DNA of 64,000 bases from Arthrobacter castelli DSM 16402 (GTDB taxonomy: Bacteria > Actinomycetota > Actinomycetes > Actinomycetales > Micrococcaceae): positions 1 to 64,000 of the forward strand of contig NZ_AUMN01000020.1 in NCBI RefSeq assembly GCF_000430705.1. The letters run 5' to 3'. The notes under the pieces are model-generated. The model had not been told where the DNA came from. It searched no databases and was given only the letters and a program-made list of their open reading frames with translations. This document shows, in pieces, positions 3,949 through 15,844 of this stretch (position 1 is the first letter of the stretch; each line of letters opens with the position of its first letter). The position numbers and the translations under genes were made by a program.

Positions 3949-4095
3949 GTCGAATGCATGCCCCGCGGCTGGCCTGCTCCGCCCCGTAAGCTGGAATCCA
4001 ACACGTGTACGCATACGCACCGATCTGGATCAACCAATCGTGCGGCGGCAGATCGCGAGCCGACTGCGGCCCAAGGCCCTATTGAAAGGCTGGAC

Positions 4096-4847
4096 ATGAC
4101 GGAAGAGCGTGCCTCTTAGTCACCGCTGCGCATCACTGTGTGGAATGAGGGCGTCCACGAAGCTACGCAGCCGGAGGTCTCGGCCGTGTATCCGGATGGC
4201 ATTCATAACGCCATCGCCGACGGCCTGCGGCTGCAGTTCGGCGATGGGCCGACGATCAGGACGGCCGTGCTGTCCGATCCCGAACACGGGCTGAGCGAGG
4301 CCGTGCTGGATGAAACGGATGTGCTGCTGTGGTGGGGCCATATTGCCCACGAGTCCGTTGACGACGACGTCGTCGAGCGGGTCCATCGCCACGTCCTGGC
4401 AGGTATGGGCCTGATCGTGCTGCACTCCGGCCATTTTTCGTAGATCTTCAGGGCTCTGATGGGAACGACGTGCTCGCTGCTGTGGCGCAATGAGGGAGAG
4501 CGCGAAATAGTGTGGAGCGTCAACCCCACGCATCCCATTGCCGGCGGCGTCGACGTGTTCCGCTCGTGCTGGACAGCCACGAAACCTATGGCGAATTCTT
4601 CGACATCCCTGCCCCGGACGAGTTGGTGTTCATCAGCTCGTTTGCCGGCGGGGAAGTCTTACGCTCCGGGGTTACGTTCAGCCGGGGACGGGGCAAAATC
4701 TTCTACTTCAGTCCCGGGGATCAGTCCTACCCGATTTACTATCAGCCCGGGATCCGGAGGGTTCTGGCCAACGCCGCCCAATGGGCTGCTCCGTCCTCGC
4801 CGATGGCAAGGAGCATGCCTTCAGTGGGAAATCCCCGTCGTGATTAG
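4096..4847 (+). pseudogene. ThuA-domain protein, broken by two amber stops and a frameshift
   Basis: The reading frame starts at the ATG at 4096 (GAAAGG just upstream) and encodes ThuA-type sequence: [46 protein letters not shown], then in another frame [20 protein letters not shown] and [13 protein letters not shown]. These are hallmarks of ThuA/trehalose-utilisation proteins, a glutamine-amidotransferase-like fold of roughly 240 residues used in sugar metabolism. Three lesions interrupt it: TAG at 4117-4119, TAG at 4441-4443, and a frameshift between about 4552 and 4566. Homology continues on both sides of each lesion. It converges on a truncated LacI gene, so this locus seems to be decaying. 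Confidence 0.82.
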
Positions 4848-4936
4848 TTTGAAGCCACCTCCAATCGGCAGGGAGACTGACGTGGGACCGGCGGCAATGG
4901 TGATCGGTGAGCAGGGATTAACACCAATCGGTATGT

Positions 4937-5689
4937 TCACCGGCGTGTCGGCAGTCGACACGCGGCGCGGCCGCCGTCGCTGTTGAGCCTGGTGCTGATT
5001 TTGCGGCCGCCCGTAATGGAAATGCCGTGCTCATCGGCCGTCCTGACGAAAGCCTGCTCGCGTGCCAGCGAAGCTGTGGAAATGCGTGGCCCGACGACGG
5101 TCGCGATCTCCCTGTATCCATGCCACAACACATGCTCCATGACCTCGGTCGCCGCGGCGTCGTCGTTGATGCCTACAAAGTCGCCCGCGACGAACGCTGT
5201 GTGACGGGACAGATAAACGTAGGGAATGCGATGCTGCCGCAACGTGCGCAGCGCCCTCGTGTCTTCGCGCAGAGCACCGGCGATGATGACGCCGTCGACA
5301 TTCCTGGCAGCGAGAGTGGCAGCGGACTGGGCGAGGGTTTCGGCATCGTCCTGGGTGGTGGAGACAAAGACCTCGTACCCCTCACGTGCGGTGGCATCGA
5401 TAACGCTTTGGGCCCACGCCATGTACATCTGGTTTGTGACATTGGGCAGGATCAGTCCGATCACGCGGGTCAGCTGGCCGCTCCGCTTGAGCTCCCCCTG
5501 GCGAGGGCGGAACCCAAGTTCATTCGCCACCGAGACGATATGCTTCCTGGTCTCGGCGGAGACCCCGCCCTTTCCATTCATCACATAGGAAACTGTGGCC
5601 GGAGAGACACCGGTCACCCTCGCGACCGCTGCGGCAGAGACGGAACGTGGGCGCATCAGGGTGTCCCCGGCGGTGTCCGTAGCTGCCAT
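4937..5689 (-). pseudogene. LacI-family regulator lacking its C-terminal third
   Basis: A 250-residue open frame whose N-terminal 235 residues are a good LacI protein: HTH (SAAAVARVTGVSPATVSYVM), LGFRPRQ linker, then IGLILPNVTNQMYMAW and a first half of the effector domain. LacI proteins normally run about 330-350 residues; here the protein ends abruptly after [12 protein letters not shown] and no matching C-terminal sequence was found in the next 90 bp. The start is strong (AAAGGAGGG ahead of the ATG at 5689). The DNA-binding half could still be made, but effector binding and dimerisation would be impaired. It converges on the broken ThuA gene, probably a former partner. Confidence 0.7.
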
Positions 5690-5754
5690 GGCGCCCTCCT
5701 TTAAGTGATCCATTCGACGGGCTGTGTGAGGACCATTACAGCCGCATAACAAAG

Positions 5755-5861: not shown

Positions 5862-6455
5862 ATGAGTAACCAGTCGACTGCGGGCGCGGGACCTGCCGAA
5901 TTTCTCGAGCTGCTGCGCGAAGATCCCATTATCGCCACTGTCAAAGAGGAGGCGGGGCTCCGGGAGATACTGGACTCGGAACGCCAGGTGGTGTTTCTCC
6001 TGTTCGGCTCAATCCTGTCCATTGAAGAGACCGTCGCCCGGTGCAAGACGGCAGCGAAGACGGTGCTGGTGAACGTTGACATGGTGGACGGGCTCTCCGG
6101 ACGCGACGTCTCCATTGACTGGCTTGCTTCCCACACGCAGGTGGACGGGATTCTGTCGACCAAGACCTCCTTGATCCGGGCCGCGCGCCGCAACGGGCTG
6201 GTCACCGTACAGCGGTTCTTCCTCGTGGACTCGTTGTCCTACGGGCAGTTGCCGCGGGTGGCTTCGCAGGCACAGCCGGATGTGCTGGAAATCCTTCCGG
6301 GGTGCGTGCCCCGGGTGCTGACCTGGCTGCGCGAGGACACGGATATACCGCTGATCGCCGGGGGACTGGTCTGCGAGAAGGACGACGTCGTCGCGGCGCT
6401 GGGAGCCGGGGCGCTCGCCGTCGCGTCGTCGAACCGGGACGTGTGGACGATGTAG
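5862..6455 (+). CDS. GlpP-family antiterminator-like protein (YgcP type)
   Basis: A 197-residue protein of the glycerol-3-phosphate-responsive antiterminator family: VVFLLFGSILSIEETVARCK, VLVNVDMVDGLSGRD, TKTSLIRAARRNGL and VLEILPGCVPRVL follow the TIM-barrel-like GlpP pattern. Known GlpP proteins bind a phosphorylated ligand and let RNA polymerase pass a terminator in the leader of the target mRNA. AGGGGAGA at 5845-5852 favours the ATG at 5862 over 5853. The gene converges on the FGGY kinase/FAD oxidase/SDR operon, which has exactly such a leader terminator. The same four families occur together in the E. coli ygc locus, so YgcP is the better comparison than GlpP itself. Confidence 0.85.
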   Translation: MSNQSTAGAGPAEFLELLREDPIIATVKEEAGLREILDSERQVVFLLFGSILSIEETVARCKTAAKTVLVNVDMVDGLSGRDVSIDWLASHTQVDGILSTKTSLIRAARRNGLVTVQRFFLVDSLSYGQLPRVASQAQPDVLEILPGCVPRVLTWLREDTDIPLIAGGLVCEKDDVVAALGAGALAVASSNRDVWTM

Positions 6456-6528
6456 CGAACCGCCTGGCTGGCCGACTCTGTGGGCGAAGGCCTATGCGGG
6501 CAGCCGGCCTGTATGTGTGGGCGGCCAG

Positions 6529-7956
6529 TTATCCGACGATGCCGCTGGTGCGCCGGTAGATCGCGTCGGTGTGCGCGGTGGCGTCCTCGTGAACGGCACG
6601 CAGCGAGCGGTAGATGCCGGCGTTGTCCGGGTTGGGCGTGAAGGTGTCCCGGTGCCGCACCATCGCGTGGACGGCATCGGCGAAGGACGCGTAGCTTCCT
6701 GTCCCGACCGCGGCGCAGATGGCGGCGCCGCGGGCGGCGGCACTGTCGCCCTGCATCCGCAGGGTCGGGACCTCGAAGACATCCGCCATGATCTGCATCA
6801 TCAGCTCCGACATTGACCCGCCGCCGGAGACGACGGCCCGTTCAAAATGCGCTCCGAGCTCGTCGGCCATAGCGCCGGTCCGCGTCCGCATCGTCATCGC
6901 GATGCCCTCAAGGATTGAGCGGTACATGTGCGCTCGCCCCTGTCGGCCGTCGAAGCCGAGGATGCTTCCCTTGCGGAAAGCCGCATCCGAAGGTGCCAGC
7001 CAGTCCAGCACGGTCAGCAGGCCATCGGACCCGGCCGGCACCTGCATGGCTTCGTGATTGAGAACTTCCTCCAAGCGCAGCCCGCGCGCGGTGGCGGCGT
7101 CAACGGCCTCCGTTCCCAGCACGTCGCGGAACCAGCTGACGGTCCACATGCCCCGGCGGATCCCATGGCTTTCATACAGGTAGCGGCCCGGCTCGGAACC
7201 AAAGTTGGTCCAGAACGTTCCGGCGTCGTTGACCTCGACGTCTCCGATGGACATGCCTGCAATGTACGTGCCCAGCGAGACGAGCACCGTCGACGGCTCG
7301 AGCAGCCCGCATCCGAGCGCTTCGACGGCCTTGTCGTTGGCGGTCGCGATCACCGGAACCCCCGCAGGAAGTCCGGTGGCGGCAGACGCCGCATCCGTGA
7401 TGTGCCCGAGGGTTTCGCCGGGCTGGACGAGTTCGAACAGCTGCTCGTGCGCCATCCCGGTGTCCGCGTAGGCTTGCGGATCCGCGCTCCAGGCCCAGTT
7501 GGCTGTGTCGATGGGCCACATACCCTGATAGTTCGCGGCCGTGTCTCGAAACTCGCCGGTGAGGCGGGCGGTGATGTAACCGGACGACGTCGTCACGTAG
7601 CTGATGTCGTCATGCTCGGCAACGAACGGGGCACCGACCCGTGCATCCATCCAGCTGAGCATGGGCTGAGCGAGGGCGCCGTCTGCGCGCAGCATCGCCC
7701 GGCAGAAGCGGATGGTGCACAAACCCACGCCGGCGATCTGCGACGTCGAACCGCCGAAGTCCTTCAAGGCCAGCCGGCAGGCCTCAATGATCGAGTCCCA
7801 GATGTCGTCGTCGGGGAATTCGACGACGCCGGGCGCCGGGGTGTCGTTTGGGCGAAGGTTGGCGCGCCCCTCACTGACGATCGCGCCGTCGTCGTCGAAG
7901 ATGGCGACCTTCGACGATTGGGAACCGTTGTCGATGCCGACAAAATAACGCGCCAT
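6529..7956 (-). CDS. FGGY-family carbohydrate kinase (YgcE-like)
   Basis: A 475-residue kinase of the FGGY family (glycerol, xylulose, gluconate and erythritol kinases). The N-terminal phosphate-binding motif is YFVGIDNGSQSSKVAIFD. The C-terminal ATPase domain shows ANDKAVEALGCG, LVSLGTYIAGMS and the adenosine motif VVSGGGSMSELMMQIMADV. It should phosphorylate a polyol, ketose or sugar acid, giving the ligand that a GlpP-type sensor would recognise. It is the last gene of the SDR-oxidase-kinase operon; its ATG at 7956 lies 2 bp after the oxidase stop, with AGGGGA seven bases upstream (the ATG at 7962 lacks proper spacing). The substrate is unknown. Confidence 0.88.
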   Translation of the reverse strand: MARYFVGIDNGSQSSKVAIFDDDGAIVSEGRANLRPNDTPAPGVVEFPDDDIWDSIIEACRLALKDFGGSTSQIAGVGLCTIRFCRAMLRADGALAQPMLSWMDARVGAPFVAEHDDISYVTTSSGYITARLTGEFRDTAANYQGMWPIDTANWAWSADPQAYADTGMAHEQLFELVQPGETLGHITDAASAATGLPAGVPVIATANDKAVEALGCGLLEPSTVLVSLGTYIAGMSIGDVEVNDAGTFWTNFGSEPGRYLYESHGIRRGMWTVSWFRDVLGTEAVDAATARGLRLEEVLNHEAMQVPAGSDGLLTVLDWLAPSDAAFRKGSILGFDGRQGRAHMYRSILEGIAMTMRTRTGAMADELGAHFERAVVSGGGSMSELMMQIMADVFEVPTLRMQGDSAAARGAAICAAVGTGSYASFADAVHAMVRHRDTFTPNPDNAGIYRSLRAVHEDATAHTDAIYRRTSGIVG

Positions 7957-7958
7957 CG

Positions 7959-9485
7959 TCATCCCCTCAATCCGGCGGGGCCGGTGAACGTCGTATCCGG
8001 GTGTTGGGCGGCGGCAGGTATTGCCCCGTCAACCGGGAAGATGGTCCCCTTGTTCATGATCCCGTTGGGATCGAAGGCCTCCTTGAGCGCTGCCAGCATC
8101 GGGTAGGCCGTGCCGTGTTCCGCCGTCGTCCACGGTGTGCGGTACTTGCCGATGCCGTGGTGGTGCACCATCGACCCGCCGTGGCGCAGCGCCTCTTCGA
8201 CGATGATCGCGTTGAGCGGTACGTGGTACTTTGCGATTTCTTCCTCGACGGCGCAGTCGATGCGGTAGTCGTAGACGAAGTACATATTGGTGCCCGTCTG
8301 GTAGCTGTGCGAGGAATGGCCTCCGAGCATCGGCAGGTCGGCGTAGTGCGGGTACTCATGACGGATCCGTTCCATGACGGCGTCGTAGAGGTTTGCCACC
8401 TCAGACCAGTTCGCCGAGACCTCTGTGGTGTAGCCAAGCTGCTGATTGCTGAGCATTGCGGCCTTTTCCGCGTCGATCTTGTCCTGGCCCCAGTTGAGGT
8501 TGTCGAACCAGTCCTCGATCAGCTGCGGGTCGACGCGTTCGTGGCGGTGTTGGGCGAGGACCCGGTCGATCTCGTCGCCGGTGGCCTTGACGATTCCCCG
8601 AGGGCCTTCGGCAACGAACACGACGACGCACTGGTTCTTGGAGAAGTGGGAGAAGTGCTGGTTGGCGTCGTCCGGCGAGTAGAGGCGTGCCACGGACGGG
8701 CTGAACCCGTTGGTGACAACCTCCCTGAGAATTGCGACGCCGGTGCGCATGTCATCGACGAGCGCTCCGTGGAAGGAGTTGTTGTCCGGCATGTACTTGA
8801 AGAGCTTGATTGTCACTTCCGTGACCACACACAGCGCTCCTTCGTTGCCAATGACGATGTGCCGGATGTCCGGGCCGGCCGACCGGCGGGGGACATCCTT
8901 GATCTTTTGGATGCCGCCGTCAGGGAAGACTGCTTCCAGCCCCGTCACCATGTCCTCGATGGCCCCATACAGGGTGGAGAACTGGCCAATGGAACGCGTC
9001 GCAACCAGACCGCCGTACTGGGCGAGGGGTTTCGACTGCGGCGAGTGGCCGGTGGTCAGCCCCTGTTCGCGGAGCTGGTCTTCGAGGACCTGGAGCGGGA
9101 CGCCGGCCTGGACCGTGGCCTGCATGTTCTCCGGGTCGATGCCGATGATCCGGTCCATCTTCGAGCAGTCCAGCACGATGGTGTCGGCCACACTCGTCTC
9201 CAGCCCGCCTTCGGTGCCGGTCCGGCCGGTGCGCGGGACGATGTTGACCAGGTGTTCGTTGGCGAACTGCAGCACGGCCGAGACCTCTTCCGCAGAGGTG
9301 GCGTAGGCGATGGCGGCCGGAGTCGGCGCGTCGAAGATGCCGTTGACGGACTGGTATTTCTTGAAGCGGTCGACGCTGGCTTCCTTGAGGACTGCCTCTG
9401 AGGTTTCAACCTGGTCGGCGGGAAGCAGCGTGCGCAGGCGCGCGAGGATTGCGGCCCGGTCGAGGCTGGCGGTGGATTCAATCAT
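7959..9485 (-). CDS. FAD-binding oxidase, AGPS-like (YgcU-like)
   Basis: A 508-residue flavoprotein of the vanillyl-alcohol-oxidase/PCMH superfamily. The FAD-binding half is recognisable by PRTGRTGTEGG, IIGIDPENMQATVQAGV, TTGHSPQSKPLAQYGGLVAT and IVIGNEGALCVVTEVTIKL. The C-terminal half carries VHHHGIGKYRTPW, which matches the His-rich active-site motif of alkyl-dihydroxyacetonephosphate synthases and related oxidases. It probably oxidises a hydroxyl or handles a phosphorylated ketose in partnership with the kinase. The ATG at 9485 has AAAGGA at good spacing; an upstream ATG (9503) does not. It lies 45 bp after the SDR gene and almost touches the kinase gene. The same SDR/FAD oxidase/kinase trio occurs in the E. 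coli ygc locus. Confidence 0.85.
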   Translation of the reverse strand: MIESTASLDRAAILARLRTLLPADQVETSEAVLKEASVDRFKKYQSVNGIFDAPTPAAIAYATSAEEVSAVLQFANEHLVNIVPRTGRTGTEGGLETSVADTIVLDCSKMDRIIGIDPENMQATVQAGVPLQVLEDQLREQGLTTGHSPQSKPLAQYGGLVATRSIGQFSTLYGAIEDMVTGLEAVFPDGGIQKIKDVPRRSAGPDIRHIVIGNEGALCVVTEVTIKLFKYMPDNNSFHGALVDDMRTGVAILREVVTNGFSPSVARLYSPDDANQHFSHFSKNQCVVVFVAEGPRGIVKATGDEIDRVLAQHRHERVDPQLIEDWFDNLNWGQDKIDAEKAAMLSNQQLGYTTEVSANWSEVANLYDAVMERIRHEYPHYADLPMLGGHSSHSYQTGTNMYFVYDYRIDCAVEEEIAKYHVPLNAIIVEEALRHGGSMVHHHGIGKYRTPWTTAEHGTAYPMLAALKEAFDPNGIMNKGTIFPVDGAIPAAAQHPDTTFTGPAGLRG

Positions 9486-9530
9486 GGAGCTGTTCCTTTT
9501 CATCGGAGGATTGGTGCAGGCAGCGGCGGA

Positions 9531-10307
9531 TCAGCGGACCAGATATCCGCCATCGACGGTGAGCACGTGGCCGTTGACGTAGTTGGATGCGGGTGAGGCG
9601 AGGAACACCAGTGCGCCCATGAGGTCGGCGACATCGCCCCAGCGCCCGGCCGGGATATGGTCGAGGACGCGCTGGTTCGTTTCCGGGTTGGAGCGGGTTT
9701 CCTCTGTGATGGCAGTGGCAAAGTATCCCGGCGCGATGGCGTTGACTTGGATGCCGTACCGGGCGAGCTCGTCGCAGTAGGCCTTGGTGAAGCCGACGAT
9801 CCCGTGCTTGGTTGCCGCGTATGCCGGAGACTGCTGTCCGCCGCGGAACGCGAACAGCGAGGCGACATTGATGATCTTGCCGGAACCCTGCTCGATGAAG
9901 TGACCCGCGGCCGCATGGCCCAGGGTGAACGGAGCGGTGAGGTTGATGTCGACCATCGGATCCCACTTCGGACGGTCAAAATGTTCGACGTCGGCCAGCT
10001 TGGCGACCCCGGCGGAGTTGACCAGGATATCGAGCCCGCCAAGACGTCTGCTGCATTCGTCGATGACCTGGGCCGGCGCTTCGGCGGCGGTCAGGTCAGT
10101 TTCCACGAACTCGTACCGCACGCCCTCGGCGGTGACCAGATCCCGGGTCGTGCCGTCGTCGTCGCTCATGCTCGGCACAAAGATGTCGGCACCGGCTTTC
10201 GCCAGAGCGAGGCTGAACGCCTGTCCCAGTCCCGAATTACCGCCGGTGACAATCGCCCGCTTCCCTGTCAGCGAAAACATATCCAGCGAGAAGTCACGTA
10301 TATCCAT
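9531..10307 (-). CDS. SDR-family oxidoreductase (YgcW-like)
   Basis: A 258-residue classical short-chain dehydrogenase. The cofactor motif is VTGGNSGLGQAF (residues about 20-31), the NSAG motif is present, the catalytic Ser lies in the INVASL segment, and Tyr/Lys appear as YAATKHGI. The C-terminal NGHVLTVDGGYLV closes the fold. It should interconvert an alcohol and a carbonyl on a sugar or polyol with NAD(P). It is the first gene of the three-gene operon and is preceded by a leader that contains an intrinsic terminator, so its transcription probably depends on antitermination. The substrate is unknown. Confidence 0.9.
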   Translation of the reverse strand: MDIRDFSLDMFSLTGKRAIVTGGNSGLGQAFSLALAKAGADIFVPSMSDDDGTTRDLVTAEGVRYEFVETDLTAAEAPAQVIDECSRRLGGLDILVNSAGVAKLADVEHFDRPKWDPMVDINLTAPFTLGHAAAGHFIEQGSGKIINVASLFAFRGGQQSPAYAATKHGIVGFTKAYCDELARYGIQVNAIAPGYFATAITEETRSNPETNQRVLDHIPAGRWGDVADLMGALVFLASPASNYVNGHVLTVDGGYLVR

Positions 10308-10365
10308 CGTTCAATTCCTTGTTCCTTTCAAACTATGATGCCTTTGTCCGTCGGCGCCATGGCAT

Positions 10366-10414
10366 AAAAAAAGAGAACAGTCCCCTCCTTAAAGTCAAGG
10401 AGTCACTGTTCTCT
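10366..10414 (-). terminator. Leader terminator of the SDR operon, with competing upstream hairpin
   Basis: On the minus strand AGAGAACAG (10414-10406) pairs perfectly with CTGTTCTCT (10380-10372), with an inner AAGGAG/CTCCTT-type stem (10402-10397 with 10390-10385), followed directly by seven T residues (10372-10366). This is a textbook intrinsic terminator located 59 bp upstream of the SDR start. An alternative stem can form slightly upstream in the RNA: GUCACU (10428-10423) with AGUGAC (10407-10402). The two stems share bases and cannot coexist, the layout expected of a regulated antiterminator. It could alternatively just end transcription of the gene at 10526-10882. Confidence 0.75.
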
Positions 10415-14500: not shown

Positions 14501-15844
14501 ATGGAGCAAACACCACATCTCATCCGGACGCTCCGGCTGCCTTCGCTCGTGCTGTTCGGGCTTGCCTATCTCACTCCACTGATTGTGCTGGCAATTTTTG
14601 GCGTCATCGCCGAGACTACTGGCGGCGCATCGCCGTCGGCCTATCTGCTGGCCCTGGTGGCTATGCTGTTCACCGCCCATAGTTACGGACGCATGTCGGT
14701 GGCCCATCCGGTCGCCGGCTCTGCCTACACCTACGTACGCCGTTCGATTGAGCCGCGCGTGGGGTTTCTGGTGGGCTGGGCAATCCTGCTCGACTACCTA
14801 TTCCTTCCGATGGTGATCTGGCTGATCGGCGGTTCCTACCTCAACGCGCAGTTCCCCGGCGTTCCGATTGGTGTTTGGATCCTGGGCTTCGTAGTCATCA
14901 CCACGTTGCTGAACCTTATTGGCATCAAGGTGGCCGAAAAGGCGAACTACATGTTGATGACCTTCCAACTGCTGGTTATCGCCATTTTCGTGGCCCTGAC
15001 GATCGGAACTCTCGTCAGCACCTCAGGGGCAGATGCGCTCATCAGCGCCGAACCCTTTATCAACGACACCTCCAATCTCAGTACGATTGCCGCTGGCGCA
15101 GCCATCGCCGCATACTCGTTCCTGGGATTTGACGCTGTCACCACGCTGACCGAGGAAGCGGTCGAGCCAACGAAAACGATGCCCAAGGCGATTATGCTGA
15201 TCGCCGTGATTGGCGGCGCCATCTTTGTGTCCGTCTCCTATATAACGCAGCTGATCCGCCCGGGCGGATTCTTTGAAAACTCGTCGTCGCTGGCATCGGA
15301 TATTGCGCTGCAGATTGGCGGACAGCTCTTCGCCGCTATCTTTCTGGCGGGCCTCGTCGTCGCGCAGTTCGCTTCAGGGCTCGCCGCTCAGGCCAGCGGA
15401 TCCCGGCTGTTGTATGCAATGGGGCGTGACGGTGTACTGCCCCGCAGAGTGTTCGGCTACATCAGCGCGAAGTTCCGCACCCCCGCCTTCAACCTGATTG
15501 TCACCGGTGCCGTGGGGTTGATCGCGATTTTCCTCGATGTCGCCACGTCAACCTCGTTCATCAATTTTGGTGCGTTTACTGCCTTCGCGCTCGTCAATGT
15601 TTCGGTGATTGCCTACTACCTCCGGCAACGGAAGGCCGGCCATCCGCTCAACCCGGTTGGCTACCTCGCTTTGCCGGCCGTTGGTGCCCTTATCGACGCA
15701 TTTCTGCTGACCCAGCTCGATCCGACGGCGATCACCTTGGGGCTGATCTGGCTCGGAGTCGGAGTTGTGGTGCTGGCTATTTCGACCCGCGGCTTCCGCA
15801 ATGCACCGCCGGATATGGCGGAACCGGAGAAGGAAACGGTTTAA
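14501..15844 (+). CDS. APC-family amino acid/amine permease
   Basis: A 447-residue permease with about 12 membrane helices. The APC signature begins LVLFGLAYLTPLIVLAIFGV, followed by SVAHPVAGSAYTYVRRS and AYSFLGFDAVTTLTEEAVEP, which is the conserved helix 6-7 region of amino acid/polyamine transporters. It probably imports the amide or amine that the flanking hydrolases attack. TAAGGA at 14488-14493 supports the ATG at 14501; the gene follows the first nitrilase by 10 bp. The C-terminus (GFRNAPPDMAEPEKETV) is cytoplasmic and charged. Confidence 0.88.
   Translation: MEQTPHLIRTLRLPSLVLFGLAYLTPLIVLAIFGVIAETTGGASPSAYLLALVAMLFTAHSYGRMSVAHPVAGSAYTYVRRSIEPRVGFLVGWAILLDYLFLPMVIWLIGGSYLNAQFPGVPIGVWILGFVVITTLLNLIGIKVAEKANYMLMTFQLLVIAIFVALTIGTLVSTSGADALISAEPFINDTSNLSTIAAGAAIAAYSFLGFDAVTTLTEEAVEPTKTMPKAIMLIAVIGGAIFVSVSYITQLIRPGGFFENSSSLASDIALQIGGQLFAAIFLAGLVVAQFASGLAAQASGSRLLYAMGRDGVLPRRVFGYISAKFRTPAFNLIVTGAVGLIAIFLDVATSTSFINFGAFTAFALVNVSVIAYYLRQRKAGHPLNPVGYLALPAVGALIDAFLLTQLDPTAITLGLIWLGVGVVVLAISTRGFRNAPPDMAEPEKETV

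Follow-up and report, generated by a model that had tools for sequence, protein, structure and literature searches.

A conserved dehydrogenase, AGPS-group flavoenzyme and kinase trio behind a putative GlpP-type leader hairpin: a candidate pathway of glyceryl-ether breakdown in Arthrobacter castelli and Escherichia coli

In the stretch of Arthrobacter castelli DSM 16402 analysed here (positions 1 to 64,000 of contig NZ_AUMN01000020.1, the window), four genes for a GlpP-type protein, an FGGY kinase, a flavin adenine dinucleotide (FAD) enzyme and a short-chain dehydrogenase (SDR) lie together. Judged by sequence, their products are practically certain to be orthologous, over the full length, to YgcP, YgcE, YgcU and YgcW of E. 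coli. The best explanation we can offer for this cassette is catabolism of a glyceryl ether by SDR and kinase, followed by the reaction of alkyldihydroxyacetonephosphate synthase (AGPS) run in reverse, under GlpP-type control; we give it an even chance. In its widest form the proposal is tentative: a widespread pathway, present in most E. coli, would degrade glyceryl ethers such as betaine lipids stripped of their acyl chains, or compounds like them, by oxygenase-free cleavage with an AGPS-group enzyme, controlled in GlpP fashion through a leader RNA that crosses phyla and lies outside Rfam. If true, this would add flavin-based breakage of glyceryl ethers to bacterial metabolism and provide a fate for the betaine-lipid head groups of algae, fungi and bacteria. 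E. coli y-genes of so far unassigned function would become a concrete, testable pathway with named steps, an intermediate class (1-O-substituted dihydroxyacetone phosphate), a substrate class and an RNA switch.

The trio and its E. coli orthologues

Open reading frame (ORF) coordinates and Pfam matches bear out the positions and families that an earlier note on this DNA had assigned to the four genes (Table 1). The lengths it gave (197, 475, 508 and 258 residues) match as well, those of the kinase and the oxidase being counted from internal ATG codons. The likeness to the E. coli proteins, which the note had pointed out, extends over the full length of each, and kinase, oxidase and SDR match best within the YgcE, YgcU and YgcW subfamilies and not within unrelated ones. 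The other FGGY kinases compared are about 25-28% identical to the window kinase, whose best PDB match is the autoinducer-2 (AI-2) kinase (E 1.6e-33). None of the four proteins passes an NCBIfam equivalog cut-off: the SDR stays below those for KduD (276 vs 339 bits for TIGR01832, 321 vs 369 for NF005390), and the kinase reaches no FGGY cut-off, the best being 154 bits vs 528 for AI-2 kinase. The GlpP-type protein and Listeria GlpP (3kts) have the phosphate-loop motifs ILPG, AGGL and SSN..W in common. SDR, FAD and kinase genes follow each other on the minus strand, with the GlpP gene convergent to them; as the note had said, no transporter gene adjoins the cluster in the window.

Table 1. Features of the window around the cassette; identities are to the E. 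coli K-12 proteins, with the number of aligned residues (aa)
Feature	Position	Strand	Evidence
GlpP/YgcP-type antiterminator protein (PF04309), 197 aa	5862..6455	+	Pfam G3P_antiterm E 4.8e-59; YgcP 43% over 184 aa
FGGY kinase, YgcE orthologue, 477 aa (475 from internal ATG)	6529..7962	-	FGGY_N/C; YgcE 45% over 473 aa
AGPS-group FAD enzyme, YgcU orthologue, 514 aa (508 from internal ATG)	7959..9503	-	FAD_binding_4 + FAD-oxidase_C; YgcU 61% over 482 aa
SDR, YgcW orthologue, 258 aa	9531..10307	-	adh_short_C2; YgcW 66% over 253 aa; YxxxK motif (YAATK)
Hairpin with T-run in the leader of the SDR gene; candidate target of GlpP antitermination	10364..10413	-	GAGAACAGTGACTCCTTGACTTTAAGGAGGGGACTGTTCTC-TTTTTTT; model R1 54.9 bits
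LacI-type regulator, C-terminally truncated	4937..5690	-	LacI helix-turn-helix + first ~150/281 positions of Peripla_BP_1

A YgcU-pair scan of 84,980 species genomes gave 176 relatives, from which 80 loci were retained, plus 779 matching plasmid records. The SDR gene adjoins the FAD gene in all 82 loci inspected, from Actinobacteria, Enterobacterales, Bacillota and others. The kinase gene does so in 80 of the 82, the misses being a contig of 5.3 kb and a metagenome-assembled genome (MAG) contaminated with E. coli. On the contig of the latter, labelled Planctomycetota, the ygc genes are 100% identical to those of E. coli K-12. The pairwise identities of FAD enzyme, kinase and SDR correlate at 0.79-0.84, whereas 999 permutations reach at most 0.32, which supports the trio as one inherited unit. 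Very likely it is also a functional unit. Thus the co-occurrence has almost no exceptions in unrelated genomes, and, together with the correlations, it supports well what the note had postulated, a single conserved pathway whose intermediate is both phosphorylated and oxidised.

In the window's own family the trio is rare. Only 1 other of 36 genomes has it, and as this copy is 56-57% identical and belongs to a different branch, the distribution is patchy and probably horizontal. Across the phylum a close match was found in 3 of 397 genomes, the window's own included.

The FAD enzyme and the proposed pathway

AGPS is the best match of the FAD enzyme by sequence (E 6e-53, vs 1.5e-25 for LctD), by profile and by fold (Foldseek, E 1e-31; predicted structure with a mean pLDDT of 83). 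The His-rich motif pointed out earlier is real and reads HHHGIGK. Its histidines H447-H448-H449, together with R273 and Y408, match the HHH motif, R419/R352 and Y578/Y508 of AGPS and are kept in 87-88 of 88 orthologues. GlcD and the D-lactate dehydrogenase LDHD are without these residues and have GEH instead of HHH; the GEHG motif of GlcD and the D-2-hydroxyacid dehydrogenases is not present in the FAD enzyme, which has HHHG. By these sequence comparisons the enzyme is shown to belong to the AGPS group and not to the glycolate/lactate oxidases; a GlcD-type assignment was set aside because of the HHH, Tyr and Arg residues and the tree. AGPS forms a flavin N5 adduct with dihydroxyacetone phosphate (DHAP) and swaps the group at C1 without net redox change, and its residues R352, Y508 and R447 have been demonstrated to matter (PMC3509576).

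This placement bears directly on a pathway for sugar acids or polyols, in which the flavoenzyme would be a GlcD-like D-2-hydroxyacid (aldonate) dehydrogenase, the SDR of the KduD/gluconate-5-dehydrogenase type and the kinase specific for a keto-sugar, the product being split elsewhere. The SDR is indeed nearest to KduD and gluconate 5-dehydrogenase models and the kinase to AI-2 kinases, xylulokinases and gluconokinases. LctD and GlcD are homologues of the FAD enzyme, and the electron-transfer flavoprotein (ETF) partners encoded at some loci resemble those of LctD/ETF lactate dehydrogenases. Yet the FAD enzyme has HHHG and the essential Tyr and Arg of the AGPS group, not the GEHG of GlcD and LDHD; no aldolase, dehydratase or isomerase recurs beside the trio; and the quaternary-amine transporters described below would be left unexplained. 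We regard such a pathway as unlikely.

In the glyceryl-ether pathway that we propose instead, the SDR would oxidise a glyceryl compound R-O-CH2-CHOH-CH2OH at C2 and the FGGY kinase would phosphorylate it, giving a 1-O-substituted DHAP, the kind of compound that AGPS makes. The YgcU-type enzyme would then run AGPS chemistry in reverse, cleaving the ether and releasing DHAP by deprotonation at C1, formation of a flavin N5 adduct, expulsion of R-OH and addition of water. It is somewhat probable that a DHAP-type intermediate is handled by AGPS chemistry. The forward direction would mean ether or lipid biosynthesis, with the enzyme forming alkyl-DHAP ethers the way eukaryotes do. Among characterised enzymes AGPS is the closest, but genes for acyl-DHAP, acyl-CoA or lipid synthesis are missing beside the trio, and the uptake systems, the control by IclR, RpiR or GlpP types and the aldehyde dehydrogenase (ALDH)/lyase set suggest catabolism, which makes a biosynthetic role very improbable.

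Clues to the substrate come from the genes beside the trio in other genomes. OpuC-type ABC transporters are encoded there in Microbacterium, Lentzea, Naasia, Salinibacterium, Nesterenkonia and Enterococcus, BCCT transporters in Mesobacillus, Bacillus, Peribacillus, Vibrio, Prauserella and an Actinomycetaceae MAG. According to our tally, one or the other is found at the locus in 14 of 28 non-enterobacterial genera, where about 1 would be expected (Poisson 3e-12; the expectation of ~0.034 per 21.5-kb locus derives from 83 BCCT and 83 OpuAC matches in 20 host genomes of ~105 Mb). Two further gene sets recur. The first consists of an alcohol dehydrogenase (ADH), a BADH-like ALDH and an aspartase-like lyase, with an IclR regulator (Mesobacillus and Bacillus, in part Priestia and Vibrio); the second of a 3-hydroxyisobutyrate-dehydrogenase-like enzyme, an SSADH-like ALDH and a homologue of the formaldehyde-activating enzyme Fae (Microbacteriaceae, Lentzea, Streptomyces NBC_01549). 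In Pantoea, Erwinia and Serratia, too, Fae and ALDH genes stand beside the trio. YgcS, a protein of the major facilitator superfamily (MFS), replaces OpuC where Fae/ALDH are the neighbours (Streptomyces, Pantoea, Serratia) and BCCT where lyase/ALDH are (Priestia), which ties the E. coli-type loci to a like kind of substrate.

The aspartase-like lyase keeps S318, K324 and N326 of AspB, that is, the catalytic serine and the contacts to the alpha-carboxylate. In Bacillales and Vibrio alike it carries the changes T101I, N142S and H188C (AspB numbering). The Prauserella lyase is a different, divergent member of the family and was left out of the lyase count. Fae homologues beside the trio (L027:5085-5651, L043:2491-2991 and relatives) occur in Actinobacteria and Enterobacterales, groups that to our knowledge are not known for methanopterin; their reaction probably differs from the usual one.

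In betaine lipids a quaternary-ammonium acid is joined to glycerol through an ether bond. In our proposal R would carry a quaternary ammonium, and deacylated betaine lipids, that is glyceryl-trimethylhomoserine and its relatives, would fit best. Where the extra genes are present, R-OH would be converted to a C4 acid and trimethylamine by the alcohol/aldehyde dehydrogenase pair and the remodelled aspartase (or the Fae-like protein). In the case of diacylglyceryl-trimethylhomoserine (DGTS), cleavage would set homoserine betaine free as the alcohol; its acid would be trimethylaspartate, from which elimination would yield fumarate and trimethylamine; these products match ADH, ALDH and lyase one by one. 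From the gene content, a quaternary-ammonium glyceryl ether is a plausible if tentative substrate. The DGTS head group as the specific one is rather doubtful, and the head groups of the betaine lipids DGTA or DGCC may take its place. No paper on the breakdown of betaine-lipid head groups was found in the open-access literature.

The OpuC, BCCT and BADH-like neighbours are also in line with catabolism of a quaternary amine in which no ether is involved. The flavoenzyme would then be an oxidase or ETF-dependent dehydrogenase acting on a non-ether substrate, as the ETF genes adjoining YgcU in four lineages could indicate, or it would expel an amine from C1 of a DHAP skeleton, which AGPS chemistry could do in principle. 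However, the simplest explanation of ADH, ALDH and aspartase-like lyase beside the trio is that an ether gives off an alcohol, and we know of no common natural N-glyceryl quaternary amine. Hence the probability of this reading is low.

Several observations weigh against the glyceryl-ether pathway. The second catalytic arginine of AGPS (R447 in Dictyostelium) is not conserved, the aligned column containing K, R, I, Q or F where the alignment is weak; therefore we file the FAD enzyme as AGPS-like and not as AGPS. The gap in fold similarity between AGPS and the lactate dehydrogenases is modest (TM normalised by query 0.77 vs 0.73). The ETF genes (in enterobacteria, Enterococcus, Ilyobacter and Desulfotignum) suggest a redox enzyme or flavin electron transfer, which a reverse-AGPS step, being free of redox change, would not need; one may speculate that they serve an oxidative ether cleavage that yields an aldehyde, or that they re-oxidise flavin trapped in its reduced form. 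In about half of the genera and in the window there is no quaternary-amine transporter at the locus, and YqcE and YgcS are MFS proteins without known substrate. No lipase or deacylase recurs beside the trio. The window locus has no R-processing module and the window's genome no Fae; its two aspartase-family proteins look ordinary and share no more than 38-39% identity with the special lyase. Finally, a search of the open-access literature found no characterisation of ygcE, ygcU, ygcW or ygcP.

More distant AGPS-like enzymes (28-33% identity) are encoded in other operons, and the plasmid-borne ones all have AHHHG or SHHHG. Their neighbours are GlpK and GlpD (L096), GlpD and an FGGY kinase (L091 and L095) or a 'xylulokinase' and a glycerol dehydrogenase (L093 and L094). 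The L095 operon, from Paracoccus jeotgali, also has an ALDH, an iron-ADH and, for beta-oxidation, two enoyl-CoA hydratases, the set that would be required for alkylglycerol breakdown. The operon L097 contains PdxA and a four-carbon-acid sugar kinase. The combination of a kinase, a glycerol-type dehydrogenase and an AGPS-like enzyme thus recurs with differing dehydrogenases and kinases, and the plasmid operons L091 and L093-L097 possibly represent separate glyceryl-ether pathways.

Two other neighbour clusters were set aside. The ThiF/MoeA genes by the Pantoea cluster were judged irrelevant, and 'cluster 20', which follows the kinase in Curtobacterium and Saccharopolyspora, has no Pfam match and is probably an artefact of ORF calling.

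The leader hairpin and the GlpP gene

The leader of the SDR gene contains a terminator-like hairpin followed by seven T, which together span 10413-10366 of the minus strand. From 20 aligned leader sequences a covariance model, R1, was built. In the window's 4.59-Mb genome R1 matches this hairpin only, which is itself one of the 20 building sequences; Rfam has no match between positions 4000 and 12000 of the window. Equivalent hairpins lie ahead of ygcW and of the divergent yqcE in enterobacteria; in Streptomyces, Amycolatopsis, Nesterenkonia, Curtobacterium relatives and others they lie ahead of the operon's first gene. The two E. coli K-12 elements face outward in the ygcW-yqcE intergenic region, at L004:15297-15347 (-) and 15521-15569 (+), corresponding to NC_000913.3 2900296-2900346 (-) and 2900520-2900568 (+). 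Of 5426 complete E. coli genomes, 5019 have this region, which carries both hairpins. A study that mapped 3' ends in E. coli (PMC7815308) mentions neither ygcW nor yqcE in its main text.

The stem is supported by 27 cells changed on both sides, compared with a mean of 12 in shuffled alignments (0 of 500 shuffles as high), and by pairing in 92% of the stem cells vs 57-68% with the partner slid. The motif GAGAA..G..A (GAGAAnAGTnA) and its paired 3' TTCT are conserved, with compensatory changes, between Actinobacteria and Enterobacterales. Five loci outside model building (L090, L022, L017, L008 and L024) match R1 with 41-49 bits. Genome-wide, the strong matches are leaders only: one in most actinobacterial and two in most enterobacterial genomes.

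The hairpin is present in 42 of 48 loci with a YgcP-type gene and in 1 of 32 without (Fisher's p 5e-15, which overstates independence as the loci are related). The lone exception is Serratia microhaemolytica, whose YgcP (71% identity) sits on another contig, and no YgcP relative was found in the hairpin-less genomes of Microbacterium, Lentzea, Streptomyces NBC_01549 and Prauserella cavernicola. By these sequence data the leader hairpin is shown to be conserved and to accompany the GlpP-type protein.

In B. subtilis, GlpP with glycerol-3-phosphate disrupts the terminator in the glpD, glpT and glpFK leaders (PMC9604022). In Virgibacillus a similar leader hairpin is found 3' of a canonical glpP, upstream of glpK. 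From these two systems and the association with YgcP we infer antitermination, so that, by analogy, the candidate hairpin is probably under GlpP-type control. Transcription of the SDR, FAD and kinase genes would stop at the hairpin by default; with a glycerol-phosphate-like ligand bound, the GlpP-type protein would keep it from terminating, in the manner of GlpP at the glpD leader of B. subtilis. The alternative is an ordinary intrinsic terminator or attenuator unconnected with this protein. The hairpin does have the form of one, its recognition by the GlpP-type protein being predicted. Against this, GAGAAnAGTnA and its paired 3' arm are kept with compensatory changes across two phyla, the sole hairpin in a locus lacking YgcP belongs to a genome that has it on a separate contig, and the one or two strong R1 matches per genome lie at trio or yqcE leaders. 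This alternative is therefore very improbable. GlpP-type antitermination, if true, reaches beyond glycerol use into Actinobacteria and enterobacteria.

In Enterococcus, which also has a YgcP-type gene, a YqcE-like MFS gene is preceded at a distance of 33 nt by a weak R1-like hairpin (23.5 bits; L086:2816-2860 (-), L087:1060-1104 (-)). It is possibly a version of the element in a third phylum. Weak R1 matches in Bacillus genomes were rejected; they are ordinary AT-rich terminators, and none adjoins glp genes.

A LacI-type gene is divergent from the GlpP gene in the window. Its frame stops at 4937 and is not taken up again in another frame; judged from its sequence the regulator, cut short in the ligand-binding domain, probably no longer works. 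At 4580-4850 (+) we noted by eye a remnant, with no intact ORF, that looks like the C-terminal portion of a ThuA-like trehalose-utilisation protein.

Comparison with known systems

The uncharacterised E. coli K-12 cluster ygcNOP-ygcQRS-ygcU-ygcW / yqcE-ygcE encodes YgcP, YgcE, YgcU and YgcW, like the window, and has the leader hairpin in two copies, before ygcW and before yqcE. Unlike in E. coli, the window trio is a single operon, towards which the GlpP gene is transcribed, and YgcN/O (ETF-quinone-reductase-like), YgcQ/R (ETF), YgcS and YqcE have no counterpart. Such ETF, ETF-quinone-reductase-like and MFS genes are likewise absent from most non-enterobacterial loci. Thus the window holds the orthologous core and not the whole E. 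coli cluster. Overexpression of YgcS raises the output of nicotinamide mononucleotide (PMC8601175), which does not establish its natural substrate.

B. subtilis GlpP shares the PF04309 domain and the phosphate-loop motifs with the window protein, and the glpD and glpFK operons under its control have a terminator hairpin in their 5' leaders, as does the window SDR gene. The sequence of the hairpin differs, however, from the canonical glp leaders, which R1 does not single out, and the operon controlled here is ygcW-U-E and not a glp operon. Hence the ligand of the window protein is probably not plain glycerol-3-phosphate.

AGPS (4bby, 2uuu) has the same fold as the FAD enzyme, the HHH motif and the equivalents of Tyr578/508 and Arg419/352; the surrounding His-S-H-Y motif is common to the enzyme and Dictyostelium AGPS. 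The FAD enzyme differs from AGPS in its additional invariant residues K158, R207, W338 and E346 and in the Dictyostelium R447, which it does not keep. Its operon looks catabolic, and the cleaving direction is proposed for it. Alkylglycerol monooxygenase (AGMO) cleaves glyceryl ethers, as proposed for the YgcU-type enzyme, but it attacks the alkyl carbon, with the help of oxygen and tetrahydrobiopterin, and is an unrelated protein. It has been named the only known enzyme that cleaves glyceryl ethers (PMC7911779).

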